From Limnohabitans curvus (GTDB lineage: Bacteria > Pseudomonadota > Gammaproteobacteria > Burkholderiales > Burkholderiaceae_C), in assembly GCF_003063475.1 (NCBI RefSeq), contig NZ_NESP01000001.1:2108001-2172000 (forward strand): a stretch of 64,000 nucleotides of DNA. The letters run 5' to 3'. This document shows, piece after piece, positions 18,028 through 26,193 of the stretch (position 1 is the stretch's first letter; each line of letters opens with the position of its first letter). The notes beneath the pieces were generated by a model. It was not told the DNA's origin and did no database searches. It worked only from the letters and a program-made list of their open reading frames with translations. The translations under genes were made by a program, and so were the position numbers.

Positions 18028-19527
18028 ATGACGACCTCTTTTTCTAATTTGCAGCTGGCCCCCGCGCTGGCACGTGCCGTAGCCGAAATGGGCTACGAAT
18101 CCATGACCCCCATCCAAGCCCAGGCCATTCCCGTGGTTCTGACTGGCCAAGACGTGATGGGCGCCGCGCAAACCGGCACCGGTAAAACGGCCGCGTTCTC
18201 GCTGCCTTTGCTGCAACGTTTGCTCAAACACGAAAACAGCTCCACCTCGCCAGCACGCCACCCCGTGCGCGCACTGGTGCTGTTGCCCACCCGCGAGCTG
18301 GCCGACCAAGTGGCCCAGCAAATCAAACAGTACGCTGTGCACACCAACCTGCGCAGCATGGTGGTGTTTGGCGGCATGGACATGAAGCCCCAAACCCTCG
18401 AGCTGAAAAAAGGCGTCGAGGTCTTGGTGGCCACGCCCGGTCGTTTGCTCGATCACATCGAAGCCAAGAACGTGGTGTTGAACCAAGTTGAATATGTGGT
18501 GCTCGACGAAGCCGACCGCATGTTGGACATCGGCTTCTTGCCCGATTTGCAACGCATCTTGAGCCACTTGCCCAAGCAGCGCACCACGCTGTTGTTCTCA
18601 GCCACGTTCTCGACAGAGATCAAACGCTTGGCTGGCAGCTATTTGCAAAACCCCGTCACCATCGAAGTGGCGCGTCCTAACGAGACTGCAGCCACCATCA
18701 CGCAGCAGTTCTACAGCGTGAGCGTGGACGACAAATACAACGCCTTGCGCCACCTCATCAAAGCCAACGGCATGAAGCAAGCCTTTGTGTTTTGCAACAG
18801 CAAGCTCGGCTGCGCCCGTTTGGCCCGCTCGTTGGAGCGCGATGGTTTTCGCACCAGCGCTTTGCACGGCGACAAGAGCCAAGACGAACGCCTGAAAGCC
18901 CTCGAAGGCTTCAAAAAAGGCGAAGTCGATTTGCTCGTCTGTACCGATGTGGCCGCACGCGGCTTGGACATCAAAGATGTGCCAGCCGTGTTCAACTTTG
19001 ACATCCCCTTCAACGCCGAAGACTATGTGCACCGCATTGGCCGCACAGGCCGCGCCGGTGCTTTGGGCCACGCCATCAGCTTTGTGTCGGGCAGCGACCA
19101 ACGCTTGGTGGGCGACATTGAAAAATTGCTCAAAACCAAGATCACGCTAGAAACCGTGAGCGTCGAGCAAGACCGTTCGCGCGAGCGACGTGAGCCTCGC
19201 AATGATTCACGCAATGATTCTCGCGAACAGCGTGGTGACATGCGCAGCGAATCGTCCGCTGGTGGTGAGCGCCGCGAGTTCAGCCGTCCCCGTGAAGGCT
19301 ATGCCTCACGCGATGCACGCCCCCGCGAGCAAGACAGCCGCCGCAGCCGCGAAGTGGGCTACGTGCCCGCACCGCGCATCAAGAACGACCCGTTCTTTGA
19401 CAAACCCTACGAAGCGCCTGTGCGCAGCGCAGAGGCAGCAGCACCTGCCGCACCCGACCCATTGCGCAAGTCGGCCAACATCAAACCCAAGCGGGTGATG
19501 GCGGCTTTGTTCAAGTCGACTACTTAA
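18028..19527 (+). CDS. rhlE: DEAD-box RNA helicase, RhlE type
   Basis: ATP-dependent RNA helicase of 499 residues, likely in ribosome assembly or RNA decay. In order: Q motif MTPIQAQAIPV (about residue 27), Walker A AQTGTGKTAAF (about 50), PTRELA, VLDEADRMLD, SATFS, and HRIGRTGRAG. The tail from about residue 380 is rich in Arg, Asp, Glu and Ser with repeated RNDS/SREQR units, a disordered RNA-binding extension common in RhlE. The ATG at 18028 (MTTSFSNLQL) matches the family; one seven codons upstream is also possible. It ends at a strong terminator that marks the edge of the accessory island. Confidence 0.88.
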   Translation: MTTSFSNLQLAPALARAVAEMGYESMTPIQAQAIPVVLTGQDVMGAAQTGTGKTAAFSLPLLQRLLKHENSSTSPARHPVRALVLLPTRELADQVAQQIKQYAVHTNLRSMVVFGGMDMKPQTLELKKGVEVLVATPGRLLDHIEAKNVVLNQVEYVVLDEADRMLDIGFLPDLQRILSHLPKQRTTLLFSATFSTEIKRLAGSYLQNPVTIEVARPNETAATITQQFYSVSVDDKYNALRHLIKANGMKQAFVFCNSKLGCARLARSLERDGFRTSALHGDKSQDERLKALEGFKKGEVDLLVCTDVAARGLDIKDVPAVFNFDIPFNAEDYVHRIGRTGRAGALGHAISFVSGSDQRLVGDIEKLLKTKITLETVSVEQDRSRERREPRNDSRNDSREQRGDMRSESSAGGERREFSRPREGYASRDARPREQDSRRSREVGYVPAPRIKNDPFFDKPYEAPVRSAEAAAPAAPDPLRKSANIKPKRVMAALFKSTT

Positions 19528-19532
19528 AAGAA

Positions 19533-19560
19533 AACGCGCCAAAAATGGCGCGTTTTTTTT
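19533..19560 (+). terminator. Rho-independent terminator of rhlE
   Basis: AACGCGCC and GGCGCGTT arms with a six-base A-rich loop, followed by eight T. It begins 5 bases after the stop codon. Confidence 0.9.
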
Positions 19561-19617
19561 GGTCCACCAGCCACTGCTCAGCGCATTCAGCCTAAGGTGG
19601 CGCACTATTTCCGCGCC

Positions 19618-20382
19618 CTACTCTCTCTTGGCCGGCTTTTTGCGAATACGTGTTTTTGGCTTCGCTGGTTGTGCGGGCGTCATGTCAGCAAGCAAATCGG
19701 GTGTGCTTGGCGCGGCCAAGTAGTTGGTTTTACTCACCACTTTCTTGCCCGTCTTGGCCTCTAGCGCTTTGCGGGCGTTACCGGCAATCTTGCCGCCCTC
19801 TTTGGCGGAGGTGCGGTTCTCATCAAAACCCTGTGCGTCGCTGCGGCGGGCGATCTCGGTGGTGCTGGCTTCGCCCAGCATGGTGAAGATCAACTCTAGG
19901 TCGGTCATGTGGTCGCGCAGGTTGTTGCCAGTATTCACCACATCCAGGCCCTTAAGCTGGCTGTGTTCGCCGGGCGTCACGCCAAAGGTAGCGCGGGCAA
20001 TTTCGGGGTTTTCTATTTCTTTGACACGCTCGTAACCCACTTGTGCCAGCCAGCGTTTGAAAGGCTCGGCCTTGGGTGAGGGGATGGCCTGGATGATGCG
20101 GAACAGGCCTTCGGTGTTAGCGCAATCCGTTTCGCGCTGTTTGCCGTCTGAGGCCGTTAGTTTCAACCCATGACAAAACGTCACGGGTTGGCCACCCTCT
20201 GCATTGAGCCGCTGTTTGAGTTTGCGCCAATAGGCACCGGCATCTGGGCTAGCGGTCAAGGTGGCGCAAACATCCACCACGGAAAACCACCATTCCGCGT
20301 TGTGCCAGACACGGCGAATGGTGGTTTCCTGGAATACCGCGATGTGGTGTGTGGGATCGTTTGGGGTGGTGATTTTCTTCAT
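19618..20382 (-). CDS. Bro-N/DinD-like protein under a LexA box
   Basis: A 254-residue protein. The N-terminal 110 residues form a Bro-N-like domain (RRVWHNAEWWFSVVDVCATL near 18-37, GLFRIIQAIPSPKAEPFKRW near 100), as in phage antirepressors. The following part (LKGLDVVNTGNNLRDHMTDLE, then EGGKIAGNARKALEAKTGKK) aligns in layout with the C-terminal half of E. coli DinD, a LexA-regulated protein reported to act on RecA filaments. The C-terminus is Lys/Pro-rich. A perfect LexA-type box lies 17 bases upstream of the start, strongly suggesting SOS induction. It is the first gene of the accessory island. The biochemical role is unknown. Confidence 0.72.
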   Translation of the reverse strand: MKKITTPNDPTHHIAVFQETTIRRVWHNAEWWFSVVDVCATLTASPDAGAYWRKLKQRLNAEGGQPVTFCHGLKLTASDGKQRETDCANTEGLFRIIQAIPSPKAEPFKRWLAQVGYERVKEIENPEIARATFGVTPGEHSQLKGLDVVNTGNNLRDHMTDLELIFTMLGEASTTEIARRSDAQGFDENRTSAKEGGKIAGNARKALEAKTGKKVVSKTNYLAAPSTPDLLADMTPAQPAKPKTRIRKKPAKRE

Positions 20383-20398
20383 ACGGCTCCCATAAAAA

Positions 20399-20414
20399 CT
20401 GTAATTCTATACAG
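20399..20414. promoter_or_regulatory. LexA (SOS) box
   Basis: CTGT-N8-ACAG with an AT-rich centre (CTGTAATTCTATACAG), flanked by A and T in symmetry. This equals the Enterobacteria/Betaproteobacteria LexA consensus. It sits 17 bases upstream of the leftward DinD-like gene and 76 bases upstream of the rightward Xre fragment, so it could control either strand; the spacing favours the DinD-like gene. Confidence 0.8.
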
Positions 20415-20489
20415 TTGTTTAGAATTGTGGCAACCGCTATTTCTTTCCTACGCGATAGAAACCGCATTGAAACGCTTGGAGGAATCGAC

Positions 20490-20702
20490 ATGAAAAGCCT
20501 AAAAGACGTGAAAGCAAAACTGCTGACCAACTCTGCCGTTCGCCAAGCCTACGACGCACAAGCGCCCGAGTTTGAGCTGGCTCGTGAACTGATTGCAGCT
20601 CGCAGGCAAGCGGGCCTCACGCAAGGCGATGTGGCCGCACTCATGGGCACAACCCAAAGCGACCCATTCACAGTCAAGACATCAGTCCCAATTTGGGACT
20701 AA
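20490..20702 (+). pseudogene. Truncated Xre-family antitoxin
   Basis: A 70-residue reading frame starting MKSLKDVKAKLL with a Shine-Dalgarno sequence (GGAGG) at 20479-20483. It reads like the N-terminal half of HigA/Xre antitoxins: APEFELARELIAARRQAGLTQ followed by GDVAALMGTTQS. That is the first part of a helix-turn-helix; the recognition helix and the rest (about 30 residues) are replaced by an unrelated tail that ends in the palindrome just upstream of higB. No toxin gene accompanies it. I read it as a deletion remnant, although a functional short protein cannot be excluded. Confidence 0.65.
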
Positions 20703-20705
20703 AAT
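20685..20705 (+). promoter_or_regulatory. Palindromic operator and -10 box of higBA
   Basis: GTCCCAA-T-TTGGGAC (20685-20699) is a perfect 7-base inverted repeat, followed at once by a TAAAAT -10-like hexamer (20700-20705), 6 bases before the higB start. HigA antitoxins bind palindromes in this position. No convincing -35 was found. Confidence 0.6.
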
Positions 20706-20711
20706 ACCGTC

Positions 20712-21020
20712 ATGCGTGTCATTGCCGTATCCACTCTCAAGACATTTTGGGAAAAATCTGGGCGTACAGATTCAGAAGAGCCTTTGAAAACTTGGTACGG
20801 TGAGGCATGTCGCGCCGAATGGAAGTCCCCAGGCGATGTGAAAGCTCAATACGGAAACGCCAGCATTGTTGGCAACAACCGGATCGTGTTCAACATTGCA
20901 GGTAACAAATATCGGCTCATCGTCGCCTTTGCCTATCGCATGCAAATTGCCTACATCAAGTTTGTAGGCACCCATGCCGAGTACGACAAAGTCGATGCGG
21001 CCATAGTGGATCAGTCGTGA
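20712..21020 (+). CDS. higB: HigB-type mRNA interferase toxin
   Basis: A 102-residue RelE-fold toxin of the HigB_toxin family. Family members cleave mRNA on the ribosome. Seen: the N-terminal MRVIAVSTLKTFWEKSGRTDSEEPL and the central NRIVFNIAGNKYRLIVAFAYR, followed by YIKFVGTHAEYDKVDA, the core beta strands and the conserved His-Tyr-Asp near the end. The toxin gene comes first and the antitoxin gene follows after 17 bases, the usual HigBA order. An operator-like palindrome lies directly upstream. Confidence 0.85.
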   Translation: MRVIAVSTLKTFWEKSGRTDSEEPLKTWYGEACRAEWKSPGDVKAQYGNASIVGNNRIVFNIAGNKYRLIVAFAYRMQIAYIKFVGTHAEYDKVDAAIVDQS

Positions 21021-21037
21021 GCGTTAAGGAGAACATC

Positions 21038-21427
21038 ATGGAAATCACACCTATCCGTACAGAGAAAGACTACCGTGCAGCACTGCGCGTGGTGTCAACA
21101 CTGGTGGATCAAGATCCATCGCCTGACACGCCAGAAGGCGAACGCTTGGATGTGCTCTCTACCTTGATTGAGGCCTATGAGCGCAAGCACTACCCGATTG
21201 ATTTGCCAGATCCGGTGGAAGCCATCAAGTTCCGCATGGACCAAGCAGGGCTGTCGGTGAAAGATCTGGAGCCCATGATCGGCCAGCCCAACCGTGTGTA
21301 TGAAGTGCTCAACCACAAACGCCCGCTGACGCTGCGCATGATCCGAAACTTGAACAAAGGCTTGGGTATCTCTGCCCAAGTTCTGATTGCGGAAAACGAC
21401 AACACGCCCCGATCAGCAGCGGCGTGA
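21038..21427 (+). CDS. higA: HigA-type antitoxin
   Basis: A 129-residue antitoxin that would neutralise HigB and repress the operon. The N-terminal half is acidic and helical (toxin binding), and the C-terminal half is a helix-turn-helix (VEAIKFRMDQAGLSVKDLEP through VYEVLNHKRPLTLRMIRNL). AAGGAG at 21025-21030 favours the ATG at 21038. The beginning of the helicase reading frame overlaps its 3' end. Confidence 0.82.
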   Translation: MEITPIRTEKDYRAALRVVSTLVDQDPSPDTPEGERLDVLSTLIEAYERKHYPIDLPDPVEAIKFRMDQAGLSVKDLEPMIGQPNRVYEVLNHKRPLTLRMIRNLNKGLGISAQVLIAENDNTPRSAAA

Positions 21428-23537
21428 TTGCACCGTATCGCTCCCTTTCCCATTCCCTTTGGCTGACCAAGACCCGACCCCCGCTACCCCTTGCGCTGTT
21501 CAACACACTGTTCAACGTGATGTTCAACATGAGTTACGCCATGTGCGTGCCCTCATGCAATTGGAGCAAAAGGAAGATCAAGCGCAGTTCAAACTCAAAA
21601 ATGCCAGTGCCAGCATCAAAGAGCGCCGTCGGCGTGGCCTGACTTGGTACCCCGTCACCATCACCCAAGAAGACATTGGTTTTGGTGGCAAGGTGGTGTT
21701 GGAGCTAGAGCGCCCAGCGCATCGGCAAGACCTGCATTTGTTTCAGGTGGGCAAGAACGCTTCGCTGTTCAGCAATGCAGCAGGCCAATCGTCAGGCCAT
21801 AAGGAATCTGACAGGCCCACGCTCAGCGGTGTTGTCACCAGCGTGCGGCGCAACAAGCTGGTGCTGACCACCACCAAAGAAGCGCTGCCCGACTGGGTGC
21901 TGGACGGCAGCACCCTCAACGGCAGCACCCTCGGCATTGACCTGACGTTTGACGAGGTTAGTTACCGCGAGATGAACCAAGCCATGAGCGCGGTCATGGT
22001 CGCACACGGCAACCGCTTGGCCGAACTGCGCGACGTGCTGCTGGGCGTGAGGCAAGCCAGCTATCGCGAGCCCCAAGCCGACGACTTGTTTTACCCCAGT
22101 GCGCTTAACGACTCGCAGCTGGTGGCGGTGCGCCATGTGATCTCGGCGCAAGACGTGGCCATCATCCACGGCCCGCCCGGCACGGGCAAAACCACCACGC
22201 TGGTCCAAGCCATTTTGGAAACCATCCGGCGTGAGCGGCGCGTGCTGGTGTGCGCCCCCTCCAACACCGCCGTGGACTTGCTGACCGAAAAGCTGGCCGA
22301 GCGCGGTGTGAACGTGATCCGCATGGGCAACCCCAGCCGCGTGTCGGAGCTGCTGCTTCAGCACACTCTTGATGCTGGTGTGATGGCCCACCCCAGCTAC
22401 GCCAAGATGCACGCGATGCGCCAAACCGCTGAGCAGCACCGAGACACGGCTAACGAACACGTTCGCCATTTTGGTTTTGAGGAGCGACAGCACCGCCAAT
22501 GGCTGCGTGAAGAAGCGCGTACGCTGCGCCAATCCGCCGACGACTTAGAGCGCTTCATGACCGAGGACGTGCTCGAATCGGTGCAGGTCATCACTTGCAC
22601 GCTGGTGGGTGCCAGCCATCGCCACATGCGTCACCTGAGCTTTGAGACAGTCTTTATCGACGAAGCCGCCCAAGCCTTGGAGCCGGGTTGCTGGATACCC
22701 ATTGCCAAGGGCCAGCGCATTGTGTTGGCGGGCGATCACCTCCAACTGCCGCCCACTGTGAAAAGTGAACAAGCCGCCCGCGAAGGCCTGCGCGAAACCC
22801 TGTTTGAAAAGTGCATCCAGCGCCAACCCAACACGGCCCGCATGCTCACCACGCAATACCGTATGCACGAGCACATCATGGGCTTCAGCTCCGAGAAGTT
22901 TTATGGCGGCCAACTGGTGCCGCACGCCAGCGTGCGCCACGCTGGCCTAGAGGCTTATGACCTGCGTTTTGCACCCGACCTGCCAGTGGAATTCATCGAC
23001 ACGGCGGGCTGCGGTTATCAAGAAGTGGCCATTCCCGAAAGCCGTTCAACCGCCAACCCCGAAGAAGCCCACTTGCTGCTGGAGCGCCTGGCTCAGCTGC
23101 TGGCGCTGGGGGAGCCCACCGACCCAGACCAGCGCCCGCTGACCATTGGCGTGATTGCACCGTACCGCGCCCAAATCAACTATTTAAAAGACGCCATCGA
23201 AGACACCGAAGTGCTGAATGGTTTGCTGCTGCAACGCAGGCTCAGCGTGGGCACCGTCGATTCGTTTCAGGGCCAAGAGCGCGACATCATTGCCATCACA
23301 TTGACGCGCAGCAACCCCCAAGGCGAGATCGGCTTTCTGTCTGACATCCGCCGCATGAACGTGGGCATGACCCGCGCACGGTGCAAGCTATTGCTGGTGG
23401 GCGATTCGTCCACGCTTTGCAGCCATCCGTTTTTTGTGGAGTTGTTGGCTTATGTGAAGGGAGTGGGGGGCTACCGTACAGCCGATCAGATGGCTGACAT
23501 TGACCCAAACCTGCGGATACTTTTCTATGGAATTTAG
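21387..23537 (+). CDS. Upf1-like superfamily 1 DNA/RNA helicase
   Basis: A protein of up to 716 residues, resembling IGHMBP2/Upf1-type SF1B helicases. Walker A GPPGTGKTTTLVQA begins near residue 262, APSNTAVDLL follows, motif II is DEAAQALEP near 425, then GDHLQLPPTV (motif III), TQYRMHEHIM (motif IV), and VDSFQGQERDIIAITLTRS with NVGMTRARCKL (motifs V-VI). A long helical insert (about 325-395) fits the 1B stalk. The start is uncertain: the frame opens with a TTG inside higA, TTG 21462 and GTG 21543 are alternatives, and the first ATG is 21555. It is possibly co-transcribed with higBA. Such helicases recur in bacterial accessory islands with unclear roles. Confidence 0.8.
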   Translation: MRKTTTRPDQQRRDCTVSLPFPFPLADQDPTPATPCAVQHTVQRDVQHELRHVRALMQLEQKEDQAQFKLKNASASIKERRRRGLTWYPVTITQEDIGFGGKVVLELERPAHRQDLHLFQVGKNASLFSNAAGQSSGHKESDRPTLSGVVTSVRRNKLVLTTTKEALPDWVLDGSTLNGSTLGIDLTFDEVSYREMNQAMSAVMVAHGNRLAELRDVLLGVRQASYREPQADDLFYPSALNDSQLVAVRHVISAQDVAIIHGPPGTGKTTTLVQAILETIRRERRVLVCAPSNTAVDLLTEKLAERGVNVIRMGNPSRVSELLLQHTLDAGVMAHPSYAKMHAMRQTAEQHRDTANEHVRHFGFEERQHRQWLREEARTLRQSADDLERFMTEDVLESVQVITCTLVGASHRHMRHLSFETVFIDEAAQALEPGCWIPIAKGQRIVLAGDHLQLPPTVKSEQAAREGLRETLFEKCIQRQPNTARMLTTQYRMHEHIMGFSSEKFYGGQLVPHASVRHAGLEAYDLRFAPDLPVEFIDTAGCGYQEVAIPESRSTANPEEAHLLLERLAQLLALGEPTDPDQRPLTIGVIAPYRAQINYLKDAIEDTEVLNGLLLQRRLSVGTVDSFQGQERDIIAITLTRSNPQGEIGFLSDIRRMNVGMTRARCKLLLVGDSSTLCSHPFFVELLAYVKGVGGYRTADQMADIDPNLRILFYGI

Positions 23538-23697
23538 ACGCTGAAGATAGAAGTTATTTACTTAAAATGTATTAAAACTTGCAGAGTGTTAATTAGGTGA
23601 GTTGGCTACGTGATGTTGTGGGTGAGGGTTCATTGCTACCTAGTCATTTACCGATTTACTTGCTCTAATTTTTGTTCTCACTCCAAATAAGTCCCCC

Positions 23698-25299
23698 ATG
23701 CATCTGCTCAATTGCCAAATCAAACAGTTCCGCAAATTTTTTGATCTCACTATCAGCGACATTCCAGCCAGTGCCAAATTGGTCATTCTTGCTGGTCCCA
23801 ATGGCTCAGGCAAGTCCTCCCTCTTCGATGCTTTACTTTTGAAATACCGTATGGACACATCGTCCGGATGGAATAACGATACCAACTACTACGATCGGCC
23901 TCAGCAAAATGCAAGTGGCCTAAGCTCCAGAATCTCCCTTGCTACTGACGCCGACGCCAAAGGTAAATTTACTCGTGGCAGCCTTTACGTGCGCAGTGCG
24001 TACAGGAATGACCATGAATTCAGTACCAGTACTCTTAAACGTCAGGGTGCCATCCTAGACAACATTACCTTGAGCCGGCTGATCGAGCCAGACGCAACGG
24101 TTAGCAATAATTACCAGCGACTTGCCTCCCAAGCAATGGAGGATGTATTCGTTAACGAAGCGGTTACAACGACCATGGGCGATTACCGCGAAAAGCTGAT
24201 CGGCGAGGTCCAAGAGCCGCTTAAGCGGTTATTCCCGGATCTAACTTTCACCGGTATCGGTAACCCTCTAGACAATGGTACTTTCCAATTCGATAAGGGT
24301 ACTTCGAAGGGCTTCGACTATAAAAATCTTTCTGGAGGTGAGAAGGCTTCCTTTGATCTGATACTTGATTTCGTAGTCAAGCGGCGCAGTTATATGGACA
24401 CAATTTACTGTATCGACGAACCGGAAAACCACATGAATACGCGGCTGCAGGGTGCGCTCTTGGGCGAACTCGTTAGCCTACTTCCAGGCAACTCTCAGCT
24501 CTGGATTGCATCCCACTCGATTGGGATGATGCGTAAGGCGCGTGAAATGTACGATGCCGACCCGGCCACGGTAGCCTTTATAGATTTCAGTGGTCATGAC
24601 TTCGACCATGTAGTTACGCTCTCGCCAAGCAAACCGACTCGAGCCTTTTGGCAAGGAGTGATGCACATCGCACTTGACGATCTATCCTCACTAGTAGCTC
24701 CGAAGCAAGTGATCATCTGCGAAGGCAATCCTACGGGTGCGGTGCCAGGGAAGAACGCAGAGCACGATGCGCGCATTTACGGATCGATCTTCGGCAACGA
24801 AATTCCCGACGCCACTTTCATTTCTGCCGGTAACTCGAAAGAAGTGCAGAACGATTTCATTGGGCTTGCCACTGTGCTGCCGAAGCTCGCATCGGGCATG
24901 AAAATCATCCGTCTGATTGACTTAGACGACCACGCTCCAAATGATGTACTAGCCTTCAAGAATGAGGGCATTACCGTTCTGAGCCTACGGCATCTAGAGG
25001 CCTACCTTTATGACGATGAGGTGTTGACTGCCCTCTGCATATCGTTGGGGAAACCCGAGAAGGCGGCAGATTTGATCGCAGCCAAGAACGTTGCGATTGA
25101 TAGCGTAAAGAGTCAGGGTCATCCTGCGGATGACATTAAGAAGGCTGCAGGCGCAATCTATGTTGAGGCTAAGAAAATATTGTCGTTAACGCAGGTTGGT
25201 AATGATGCCCCAGCATTCGCACGTAATACTCTGTCGAAATTAATAAAACCGGGAATGACTATCTATGAAAAGTTGCGCATGGACGTATTTGGGGTTTGA
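23698..25299 (+). CDS. AAA ATPase with C-terminal TOPRIM/DUF4435-like nuclease domain (PARIS/OLD-like)
   Basis: A 533-residue two-domain protein. The N-terminal ABC/SMC-like ATPase has Walker A GPNGSGKSS (33-41), signature LSGGEK (211-216), Walker B with Asp240-Glu241 (CIDEPEN), and a switch His (ASHSIG, His273). From about residue 335 a TOPRIM-like domain follows: VIICEGNP with Glu342, IDLDD with Asp408/Asp410, and RHLEAYL with Glu434. The last is a DUF4435-type motif. This matches the AriA ATPase plus AriB TOPRIM pair of PARIS, or an OLD nuclease, in one chain. It is lower in GC than its neighbours, with a weak ribosome site. No partner gene follows. Family call is strong for the domains, moderate for the system. 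Confidence 0.75.
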   Translation: MHLLNCQIKQFRKFFDLTISDIPASAKLVILAGPNGSGKSSLFDALLLKYRMDTSSGWNNDTNYYDRPQQNASGLSSRISLATDADAKGKFTRGSLYVRSAYRNDHEFSTSTLKRQGAILDNITLSRLIEPDATVSNNYQRLASQAMEDVFVNEAVTTTMGDYREKLIGEVQEPLKRLFPDLTFTGIGNPLDNGTFQFDKGTSKGFDYKNLSGGEKASFDLILDFVVKRRSYMDTIYCIDEPENHMNTRLQGALLGELVSLLPGNSQLWIASHSIGMMRKAREMYDADPATVAFIDFSGHDFDHVVTLSPSKPTRAFWQGVMHIALDDLSSLVAPKQVIICEGNPTGAVPGKNAEHDARIYGSIFGNEIPDATFISAGNSKEVQNDFIGLATVLPKLASGMKIIRLIDLDDHAPNDVLAFKNEGITVLSLRHLEAYLYDDEVLTALCISLGKPEKAADLIAAKNVAIDSVKSQGHPADDIKKAAGAIYVEAKKILSLTQVGNDAPAFARNTLSKLIKPGMTIYEKLRMDVFGV

Positions 25300-25335
25300 A
25301 ATGGCCTATGGGGCAATGGCGGCCAGACTACTTGG

Positions 25336-26193
25336 CTAGGCCAACGGATCCATCGTCTGCGGGCACTTCACGCCGACTCGCTGCCACGCAGGTGCATCAG
25401 CCACGCTCAAATGCGTGTCTTTGGCTTCCAGCTTCGCCGCACTCAAGCACCCACCCCACACACACCCATCGTCTAGGCACACCACGTCTGGGCGGTCTTC
25501 AATGTGCACGGTAGACCAATGGCCAAAGGCCATCCGCACATCAGCGGTCAATCGGCCAGGCACATCAAACCACGGCATCAAATGCGCAGGCGCTTTGTCT
25601 GCACCTTCTTTCACGCTGAAATCCATCGCGCCTTGCGCATCGCAAAAGCGCAAGCGGGTGAGGGCGTTGACGATCACGCGCAAGCGGTCTGCGCCCTCTA
25701 GGTCATCACGCCACACATTCGGCAGGCCGCCATACATCTGCGGCATGAAGTGCACCCAGTCGTCGCTGCGCAGCACGGCCTCTACTTCTCCAGCCAGTGC
25801 CATGGTGTGCGCCGCTGTCCATTGCGGCAGCACGCCCGCATGCACCATCAGCACTTGGCCCACTTGCATGGCCATGTTTTGGTGGCGCAGCCAGTGCAAC
25901 AACTCGTGGCTGTCGTGCGCGGTCAAGATGTCTTGAATGGTGTCTTGCTTGTTGGGTTGGCGCACGCCGCGTGACACAGCCAGCACATGCAAATCGTGGT
26001 TGCCCAACAAACATTGCGCGCTGCTGCCGAGCGCCATCAAACGCCGCAGCACGCCCACGTTGTTGGGGCCACGGTTGACCAAGTCGCCCAGTAAATAGAG
26101 TGTGTCGCGGCTGGGGGAGAACGCGAGGTGGGTTAACAAACGTTCTAAGGCTTCGTCACAGCCTTGCACGTCGCCAATCAAGTAAAGTGCCAT
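25336..26193 (-). CDS. apaH: Symmetrical bis(5'-nucleosyl)-tetraphosphatase ApaH
   Basis: Hydrolyses Ap4A to two ADP and can remove Np4 caps from RNA. The 285-residue protein is a metallophosphatase: IGDVQGCDEAL at the start, LYLLGDLVNRGPNNV near 32, LLGNHDLHVLA near 64, and MVHAGVLPQW near 122, with FGHWSTV near 230. The ATG at 26193 gives the exact family N-terminus (MALYLIGDVQG); a longer in-frame extension would be antisense to the next gene. It is divergent from the CNNM gene, 13 bases away, and marks the right edge of the island. Confidence 0.92.
   Translation of the reverse strand: MALYLIGDVQGCDEALERLLTHLAFSPSRDTLYLLGDLVNRGPNNVGVLRRLMALGSSAQCLLGNHDLHVLAVSRGVRQPNKQDTIQDILTAHDSHELLHWLRHQNMAMQVGQVLMVHAGVLPQWTAAHTMALAGEVEAVLRSDDWVHFMPQMYGGLPNVWRDDLEGADRLRVIVNALTRLRFCDAQGAMDFSVKEGADKAPAHLMPWFDVPGRLTADVRMAFGHWSTVHIEDRPDVVCLDDGCVWGGCLSAAKLEAKDTHLSVADAPAWQRVGVKCPQTMDPLA

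Follow-up and report, generated by a model that had tools for sequence, protein, structure and literature searches.

Introduction

In Escherichia coli PARIS, a hexamer of AriA holds three AriB subunits, and binding of Ocr frees AriB, which dimerises and cleaves tRNA (PMC11455837). Passages of a second study describe the same release of AriB from AriA and the same cutting of tRNA (PMC12409363). According to part of the original report, PARIS needs the catalytic residues of both its ATPase and its Toprim nuclease, and EcoKI is dispensable (PMC9122126). That part also includes single-chain proteins in which the ATPase is joined to DUF4435, so fusion alone is not unusual. PARIS ATPases are counted among the OLD-ABC ATPases in an excerpt of PMC12839542, and a passage of a review asks whether fused AriAB proteins form a separate OLD class or act by a mechanism unlike that of Class 1 OLD (PMC10568477).

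Here, we analysed P0001, a single-chain protein encoded in a 64,000-nucleotide stretch of the Limnohabitans curvus genome (contig NZ_NESP01000001.1, positions 2,108,001 to 2,172,000; hereafter the window). P0001 is ordinary in kind and distinct in detail: its clade is compact and widespread, and is often missed by the DUF4435 profile. The single-gene AriAB fusions (PADLOC PDLC02981 and PDLC02982; Rousset et al. 2022) are its best family match, and the product of the gene probably acts alone as an abortive-infection system in the manner of PARIS. An initial annotation, made from the letters of the window, had offered a fused PARIS variant, an OLD-family protein or a new class; the first is the best supported of the three. 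It had also set this single chain against a PARIS that usually takes two genes. The single chain stands, and fused forms had already been published in the report cited above.

Conservation and Domain Architecture of P0001

The P0001 gene is a real, conserved gene. Of the 7999 candidates scored, 2397 were relatives at E ≤ 0.001. Most of the 120 relatives listed, at 62–96% identity, are full length, and 74 of the 120 entered a first alignment (A1). A scan for two conserved peptides, with each species represented by one genome, yielded at least 80 loci from many phyla. A second alignment (A2) of 69 rows combined P0001, 12 listed proteins and 56 of the 80 loci, with relatives at 30–81% identity; the loci omitted were 7 near relatives, 12 that were partial or on short contigs and 5 with stops.

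The head of P0001 passed the cut-offs of two ABC ATPase families in Pfam (AAA_21, 61.4 against 27; AAA_15, 33.9 against 32.1), and beyond residue 286 no Pfam family was found at E ≤ 1. For the C-terminal region, where the initial annotation had placed a Toprim-like domain, two separate structure predictions gave a Toprim fold. The motif residues of both parts are conserved across the 69 rows (Table 1), D357 is a further invariant Toprim column, and the E342 column also holds glutamate in all fused, two-gene and OLD rows. Given this conservation, the acidic triad and RHLEAYL motif singled out in the initial annotation are real and conserved; its coordinates, its length of 533 residues and its ATPase head were likewise correct.

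We next compared the proportions of the chain on one MAFFT alignment. Walker A and the ABC signature are separated by 170–192 residues in the family (173 in P0001), 135–159 in the fusions (one has 275), 204–359 in the 11 two-gene loci and 196–330 in OLD proteins. After E434, 81–99 residues follow in the family, 153–180 in the fusions, 119–218 in two-gene AriB and 17–155 in OLD proteins. These proportions are unlike those of either known PARIS set and mark the family as a compact third form. Like the AriAB fusions, it has an ABC ATPase and then an AriB-type Toprim in one chain, with the acidic residues in the same order; it differs from them in forming its own clade, with a span between Walker A and signature longer than in all but one fusion and with a shorter tail. 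From two-gene ariA-ariB (8ux9, 8v46), P0001 differs in having a shorter Walker A-to-signature span and in being a single chain, with no freed AriB. The idea of a new class holds only in part: the clade stands apart with good support and has proportions of its own, but P0001 is a variant of a known design.

Affinity of the Toprim Domain

References were gathered through Pfam searches with DUF4435 and OLD-like_TOPRIM, giving 11 two-gene loci, 10 fusions and 16 PF20469 proteins, the last set comprising OLD, GajA and their kin. By profile, profile–profile comparison and predicted structure, the P0001 Toprim is nearer to AriB/DUF4435 than to OLD, which makes a fused PARIS variant the best supported reading. 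With hhalign, the C-terminal part of the family scored 98.8 to fused AriAB, 95.8 to AriB and 11.8 to OLD. Over the full length the scores were 99.9 to fused AriAB and 99.6 to OLD; since the C-terminal part alone scores so low to OLD, the full-length OLD match comes mainly from the shared ATPase head. Searched by hmmsearch at E ≤ 10, the family Toprim profile found 9 of the 10 fused proteins, 2 of the 11 AriB proteins, none of the 16 OLD proteins and neither of two HEC-04 proteins. E434 is kept in 29/29 family, 10/10 fused and 11/11 two-gene proteins, and in 9/16 OLD proteins. A VIA ranking of predicted structures placed AriB (10.8 and 9.7) above OLD (7.7 and below); whole-model VIA tested mainly residues 1–330. 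Foldseek with the C-terminal model gave no match at E ≤ 0.001, so the structural claim draws on the VIA ranking together with the profile results. On a quick tree of 66 rows, into which 29 of the 69 family rows were taken, the family formed one clade (support 100, starred), and the AriAB fusions did not.

These results bear on the strongest alternative, in which P0001 would belong with Class 1 OLD as a solitary DNA nuclease of ATPase-Toprim type, directed at phage or damaged DNA and mechanistically unrelated to PARIS. Class 1 OLD proteins (P2 Old, T. scotoductus OLD 6p74) are also ATPase-Toprim proteins encoded by a solitary gene, as a passage of PMC10568477 states, with a domain order identical to that of P0001; the predicted whole model of P0001 had OLD 6p74 and GajA among its Foldseek matches, and the full-length OLD score is high. 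Still, that score is below the one to fused AriAB, the family Toprim profile recovered no PF20469 protein, AriB ranked structurally above OLD, and PF20469 had no match at E ≤ 0.001 in the P0001 genome (5 candidates scored). We consider this alternative unlikely, and classical OLD identity was rejected on the PF20469 and Toprim profile results. HEC-04/IbfA is likewise a one-gene ATPase-Toprim protein of similar length, with phage defence reported in part of PMC12111858. Two HEC-04-matching proteins were nearer to OLD (hhalign 98.3 and 97.9) than to the P0001 family (96.5 and 96.0), and HEC-04 identity was rejected as profile PDLC04149 had no match in the P0001 genome at E ≤ 0.001 (39 candidates scored). 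The OLD label proposed in the initial annotation thus lacks support in the narrow sense and fits in the broad sense of OLD-ABC ATPases used in the excerpt of PMC12839542.

Several observations weigh against a PARIS-like assignment. Pfam DUF4435 (PF14491) matched nothing in P0001 at E ≤ 1 and nothing in its genome, and at E ≤ 1 it matched only 20 of the 69 rows (best 2.3e-6). The PADLOC AriAB model gave P0001 91.4 bits, against 179–683 for six reference fusions, each on its best AriAB model; moreover, PtuA, mad3, NsnB and other ATPase models also match all 69 rows, so the PADLOC matches are largely driven by the head. When the C-terminal profile was searched against the sequences of solved structures, no Toprim chain was returned, the best match being a ribosomal protein (E 0.046). 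AriB and OLD Toprims matched each other weakly (hhalign 70.3), leaving no sharp boundary between the two types. The tree groups the family, the fusions and two-gene PARIS apart from OLD on a branch with an SH-aLRT of 81, which is not starred, and its many long branches call for caution. The tail, shorter than in the fusions and most AriB proteins, means that a common substrate is not implied. Finally, few defence genes lie beside close relatives.

Genomic Neighbourhoods of P0001 Relatives

The neighbour scan of the close clade covered 112 of 118 open reading frames (ORFs) in 18 of 19 loci, and no common partner was found among these 112 proteins. The lack of a neighbouring effector, remarked on for P0001 itself, is therefore matched by the lack of a recurrent partner among its relatives. 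The 25 commonest families per scan were mostly housekeeping or transport; other neighbours included two RepB-family proteins, a phage tail tube protein, an Mrr-type enzyme, an N6 methylase and matches to mad2/mad3. Close relatives occupy scattered sites on chromosomes, one plasmid and viral-collection contigs, with mostly ordinary neighbours. Sites are thus not consistently core, as a defence role had led the initial annotation to expect, and the defence-island signal is weaker than hoped.

Restriction-modification (R-M) genes were surveyed in flanks of unequal length (about 3–18 kb), using profiles seeded from the family's own neighbours; the OLD control covered 15 of the 16 loci. At E ≤ 1e-60, R-M neighbours occurred in 18 of the 80 listed family loci, 6 of 15 PF20469 loci, 1 of 10 fused DUF4435 loci and 1 of 11 two-gene PARIS loci; at E ≤ 1e-6 the counts were 23, 6, 1 and 2, respectively. 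Ten neighbours picked for their R-M look were all R-M proteins by Pfam. Operon order is hsdM-hsdS-gene-hsdR at L020 and L022 and hsdM-gene-hsdS-hsdR at L062 and L068, and at L041, L069 and L070 an N6_N4-type methylase overlaps the family gene by 4 bases. Five OLD/GajA-type controls (L170, L172, L175, L177 and L178) also lie near or inside R-M loci. R-M embedding was rejected as a hallmark of the family, being common to OLD-type proteins. OLD-ABC modules with Toprim occur in BREX and R-M-like systems according to part of PMC12839542, so the association is already known in kind.

At two related Prevotella-type loci, the family gene shares its last few bases with the gene for a 285-amino-acid protein (L032:3332-4189 and L038:9601-10458); the two proteins are 95% identical to each other.

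PrrC carries an ATPase and a tRNase in one chain, and P0001 shares its single-chain layout. Some distant P0001 relatives sit in hsd operons, like prrC in ecoprrI, which raises the alternative that the family guards a partner R-M enzyme by sensing its inhibition in cis, with PrrC as the precedent (part of PMC12707154). The PrrC nuclease is HEPN, not Toprim, as a passage of PMC12409363 states. The strong R-M matches, several within operons, favour such a guard, but OLD/GajA-type controls reached 6/15 at the same threshold, and the association is therefore not family-specific. Moreover, domain and profile scans saw no R-M gene in the insertion that carries P0001, and HSDR_N, the one R-M family searched in its genome, had its sole match 0.56 Mb away. 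Within the close clade, a type I gene was seen nearby only at L071 and at plasmid locus L005, where an annotated type I R subunit lies ~8 kb off. As an account of P0001, an R-M guard is improbable.

Distribution of the P0001 Family

The P0001 gene is patchily distributed and lies within an insertion. A collection of 50,697 phage records had no match to P0001, and 2 of 72,556 plasmid records matched, one partially at 26% identity and one with a full-length copy. Three viral-collection contigs carry full-length copies. Among 36 other genomes of the genus, many of them incomplete, there was no relative bar one 89-residue ATPase-only match (E 2.1e-6), and 369 other genomes of the class had none at E ≤ 1e-20, at most three candidates being scored in each. 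This pattern tells against a cellular, non-defence role as a chromosome or cell-cycle ATPase-nuclease. Such a role has a precedent in Cran1, an archaeal OLD-class ATPase (part of PMC12796447), and the identified neighbours of close relatives are mostly housekeeping genes; yet almost all of the near relatives sampled yielded no copy of the gene, full-length copies occur on a plasmid and viral-collection contigs, and the insertion occupies a variable site, making this role a very unlikely one. We found no published description of the compact clade in the literature, which does not prove its absence.

The Insertion and Its Other Cargo

DEAD-box RNA helicase and apaH genes, which flank the insertion (Table 1), adjoin at 3–96 bases in 16 of 19 loci fetched from the genus; the other three have no DEAD-box gene within the short piece fetched. 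In all, apaH had matches in 34 other genomes of the genus, a few of them weak. When traced further, two of the three exceptions have other cargo separating the DEAD-box gene from apaH, ~7 kb in one and ~11 kb in the other, and both contain a 932-amino-acid protein that reads as a putative DNA methyltransferase. The site (19527-25336; L201 and L202) thus carries different cargo in genomes G033 and G011, and is likely an insertion hotspot in the genus.

Table 1. Features of the P0001 gene and the surrounding insertion, in window positions.
Feature	Position	Strand	Remarks
Insertion, ~5.8 kb, between DEAD-box RNA helicase gene and apaH	about 19534..25337, edges approximate	.	flanks adjoin elsewhere in genus
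Bro-N protein	19618..20382	-	PADLOC PDC-S13 candidate, 294 bits
Short helix-turn-helix (HTH) frame, 95 amino acids	20415-20702	+	stops soon after helix-turn-helix
HigB-like toxin	20712-21020	+	Pfam HigB_toxin 113.5 bits; PADLOC PD-Lambda-2_A 131.6 bits
HigA-like antitoxin	21017-21427	+	PADLOC PD-Lambda-2_B 163.5 bits
IGHMBP2-type superfamily 1 (SF1) helicase	21387..23537	+	TIGR00376 430.8 bits, cut-off 348.9; MkoA 318 bits
P0001, single-chain ABC ATPase-Toprim protein, PARIS-like	23698..25299	+	533 amino acids + stop
ABC/OLD-type ATPase head	23698..24627	+	about residues 1-310
Walker A GPNGSGKSS, G33-S41	23794..23820	+	G33, G36, G38, K39 invariant, 69 rows
ABC signature LSGGEK, residues 211-216	24328..24345	+	L211, S212, G214, E215, K216 invariant, 69 rows
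Walker B, residues 237-241	24406..24420	+	D240, E241 invariant, 69 rows
H273	24514-24516	+	invariant, 69 rows
Toprim domain (predicted)	24700..25008	+	about residues 335-437
E342, presumably the catalytic glutamate of the Toprim (by analogy)	24721..24723	+	invariant, 69 rows
D408-x-D410, presumably the metal-binding pair of the Toprim (by analogy)	24919..24927	+	D408 invariant, D410 at least 90%
RHLEAYL motif, residues 431-437	24988..25008	+	E434 invariant, 69 rows
C-terminal helical part, residues 438-533	25009..25296	+	shorter than in fused AriAB and most AriB

The toxin-antitoxin-like pair and the helicase noted at first reading are indeed present in the insertion. The lower GC content was also confirmed, at 0.51 around the P0001 gene and 0.54–0.62 in most of the window, although two other stretches (~11–14 kb and ~57–61 kb) are equal or lower. 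No insertion gene recurs near the family; a HigA-like neighbour was seen at L059 (and at L082 by a chain of similarity). Of the 402 positions of PD-Lambda-2_B, the HigB/HigA-like pair covers the first 124, the remainder lying outside this frame, and the short HTH frame may represent an antitoxin or regulator that has been cut short. Two stretches at and near the Bro-N gene are shared with G011, where the middle of that gene is missing, and Bro-N relatives at ~41% identity occur directly after one AriAB fusion (L134/L182; L182:8741-9574) and near the OLD-type locus L169. Among the 36 other genomes of the genus, a near copy of the helicase (89% identical) was found in G011 only, on a contig other than that of apaH.

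A Gabija-like pair, with P0001 as GajA and the same-strand helicase 160 bases upstream as GajB, was rejected as extremely improbable, because that helicase is of the IGHMBP2 type and not UvrD/PcrA/Rep-like (GajB models reach 19.9 bits or less), has no homologue among neighbour ORFs in any of the 80 listed loci, and occurs in G011 without the ATPase-Toprim gene.

Proposed Mechanism and Significance

Residues matching those that PARIS requires are kept in P0001, which makes an ATP-controlled Toprim nuclease the natural interpretation. In the proposed one-protein system, the OLD/ABC ATPase head would sense a phage product, perhaps an anti-restriction one, and would restrain the AriB-type Toprim nuclease through their covalent link, probably under ATP control. 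Once triggered, the nuclease would arrest the infected cell, most likely by cleaving RNA; tRNA is a guess after E. coli PARIS, and the short tail advises against assuming it. Because the Toprim cannot leave its own chain as AriB leaves AriA, we guess that rearranged oligomers would bring two Toprim domains together. An anti-phage function for P0001 is thereby suggested by analogy with PARIS. More tentatively, the family might represent a third and compact form of PARIS whose sensor and AriB-type nuclease are inseparable, so that activation would have to differ from the freeing of AriB by AriA, its distant members in R-M operons serving as in-cis anti-restriction guards in a prrC-like place; we regard this wider proposal as possible and somewhat doubtful.

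DUF4435 had no match at E ≤ 1 in 49 of the 69 rows of this AriB-type Toprim clade, which spans many phyla, and PARIS counts that require DUF4435 may therefore overlook such proteins. As a one-gene family of 533-residue proteins without a recurrent partner in its close clade, it makes the question of the AriAB class testable by a single construct. The P0001 family also raises the question of how a nuclease that is unable to leave its sensor is switched on.
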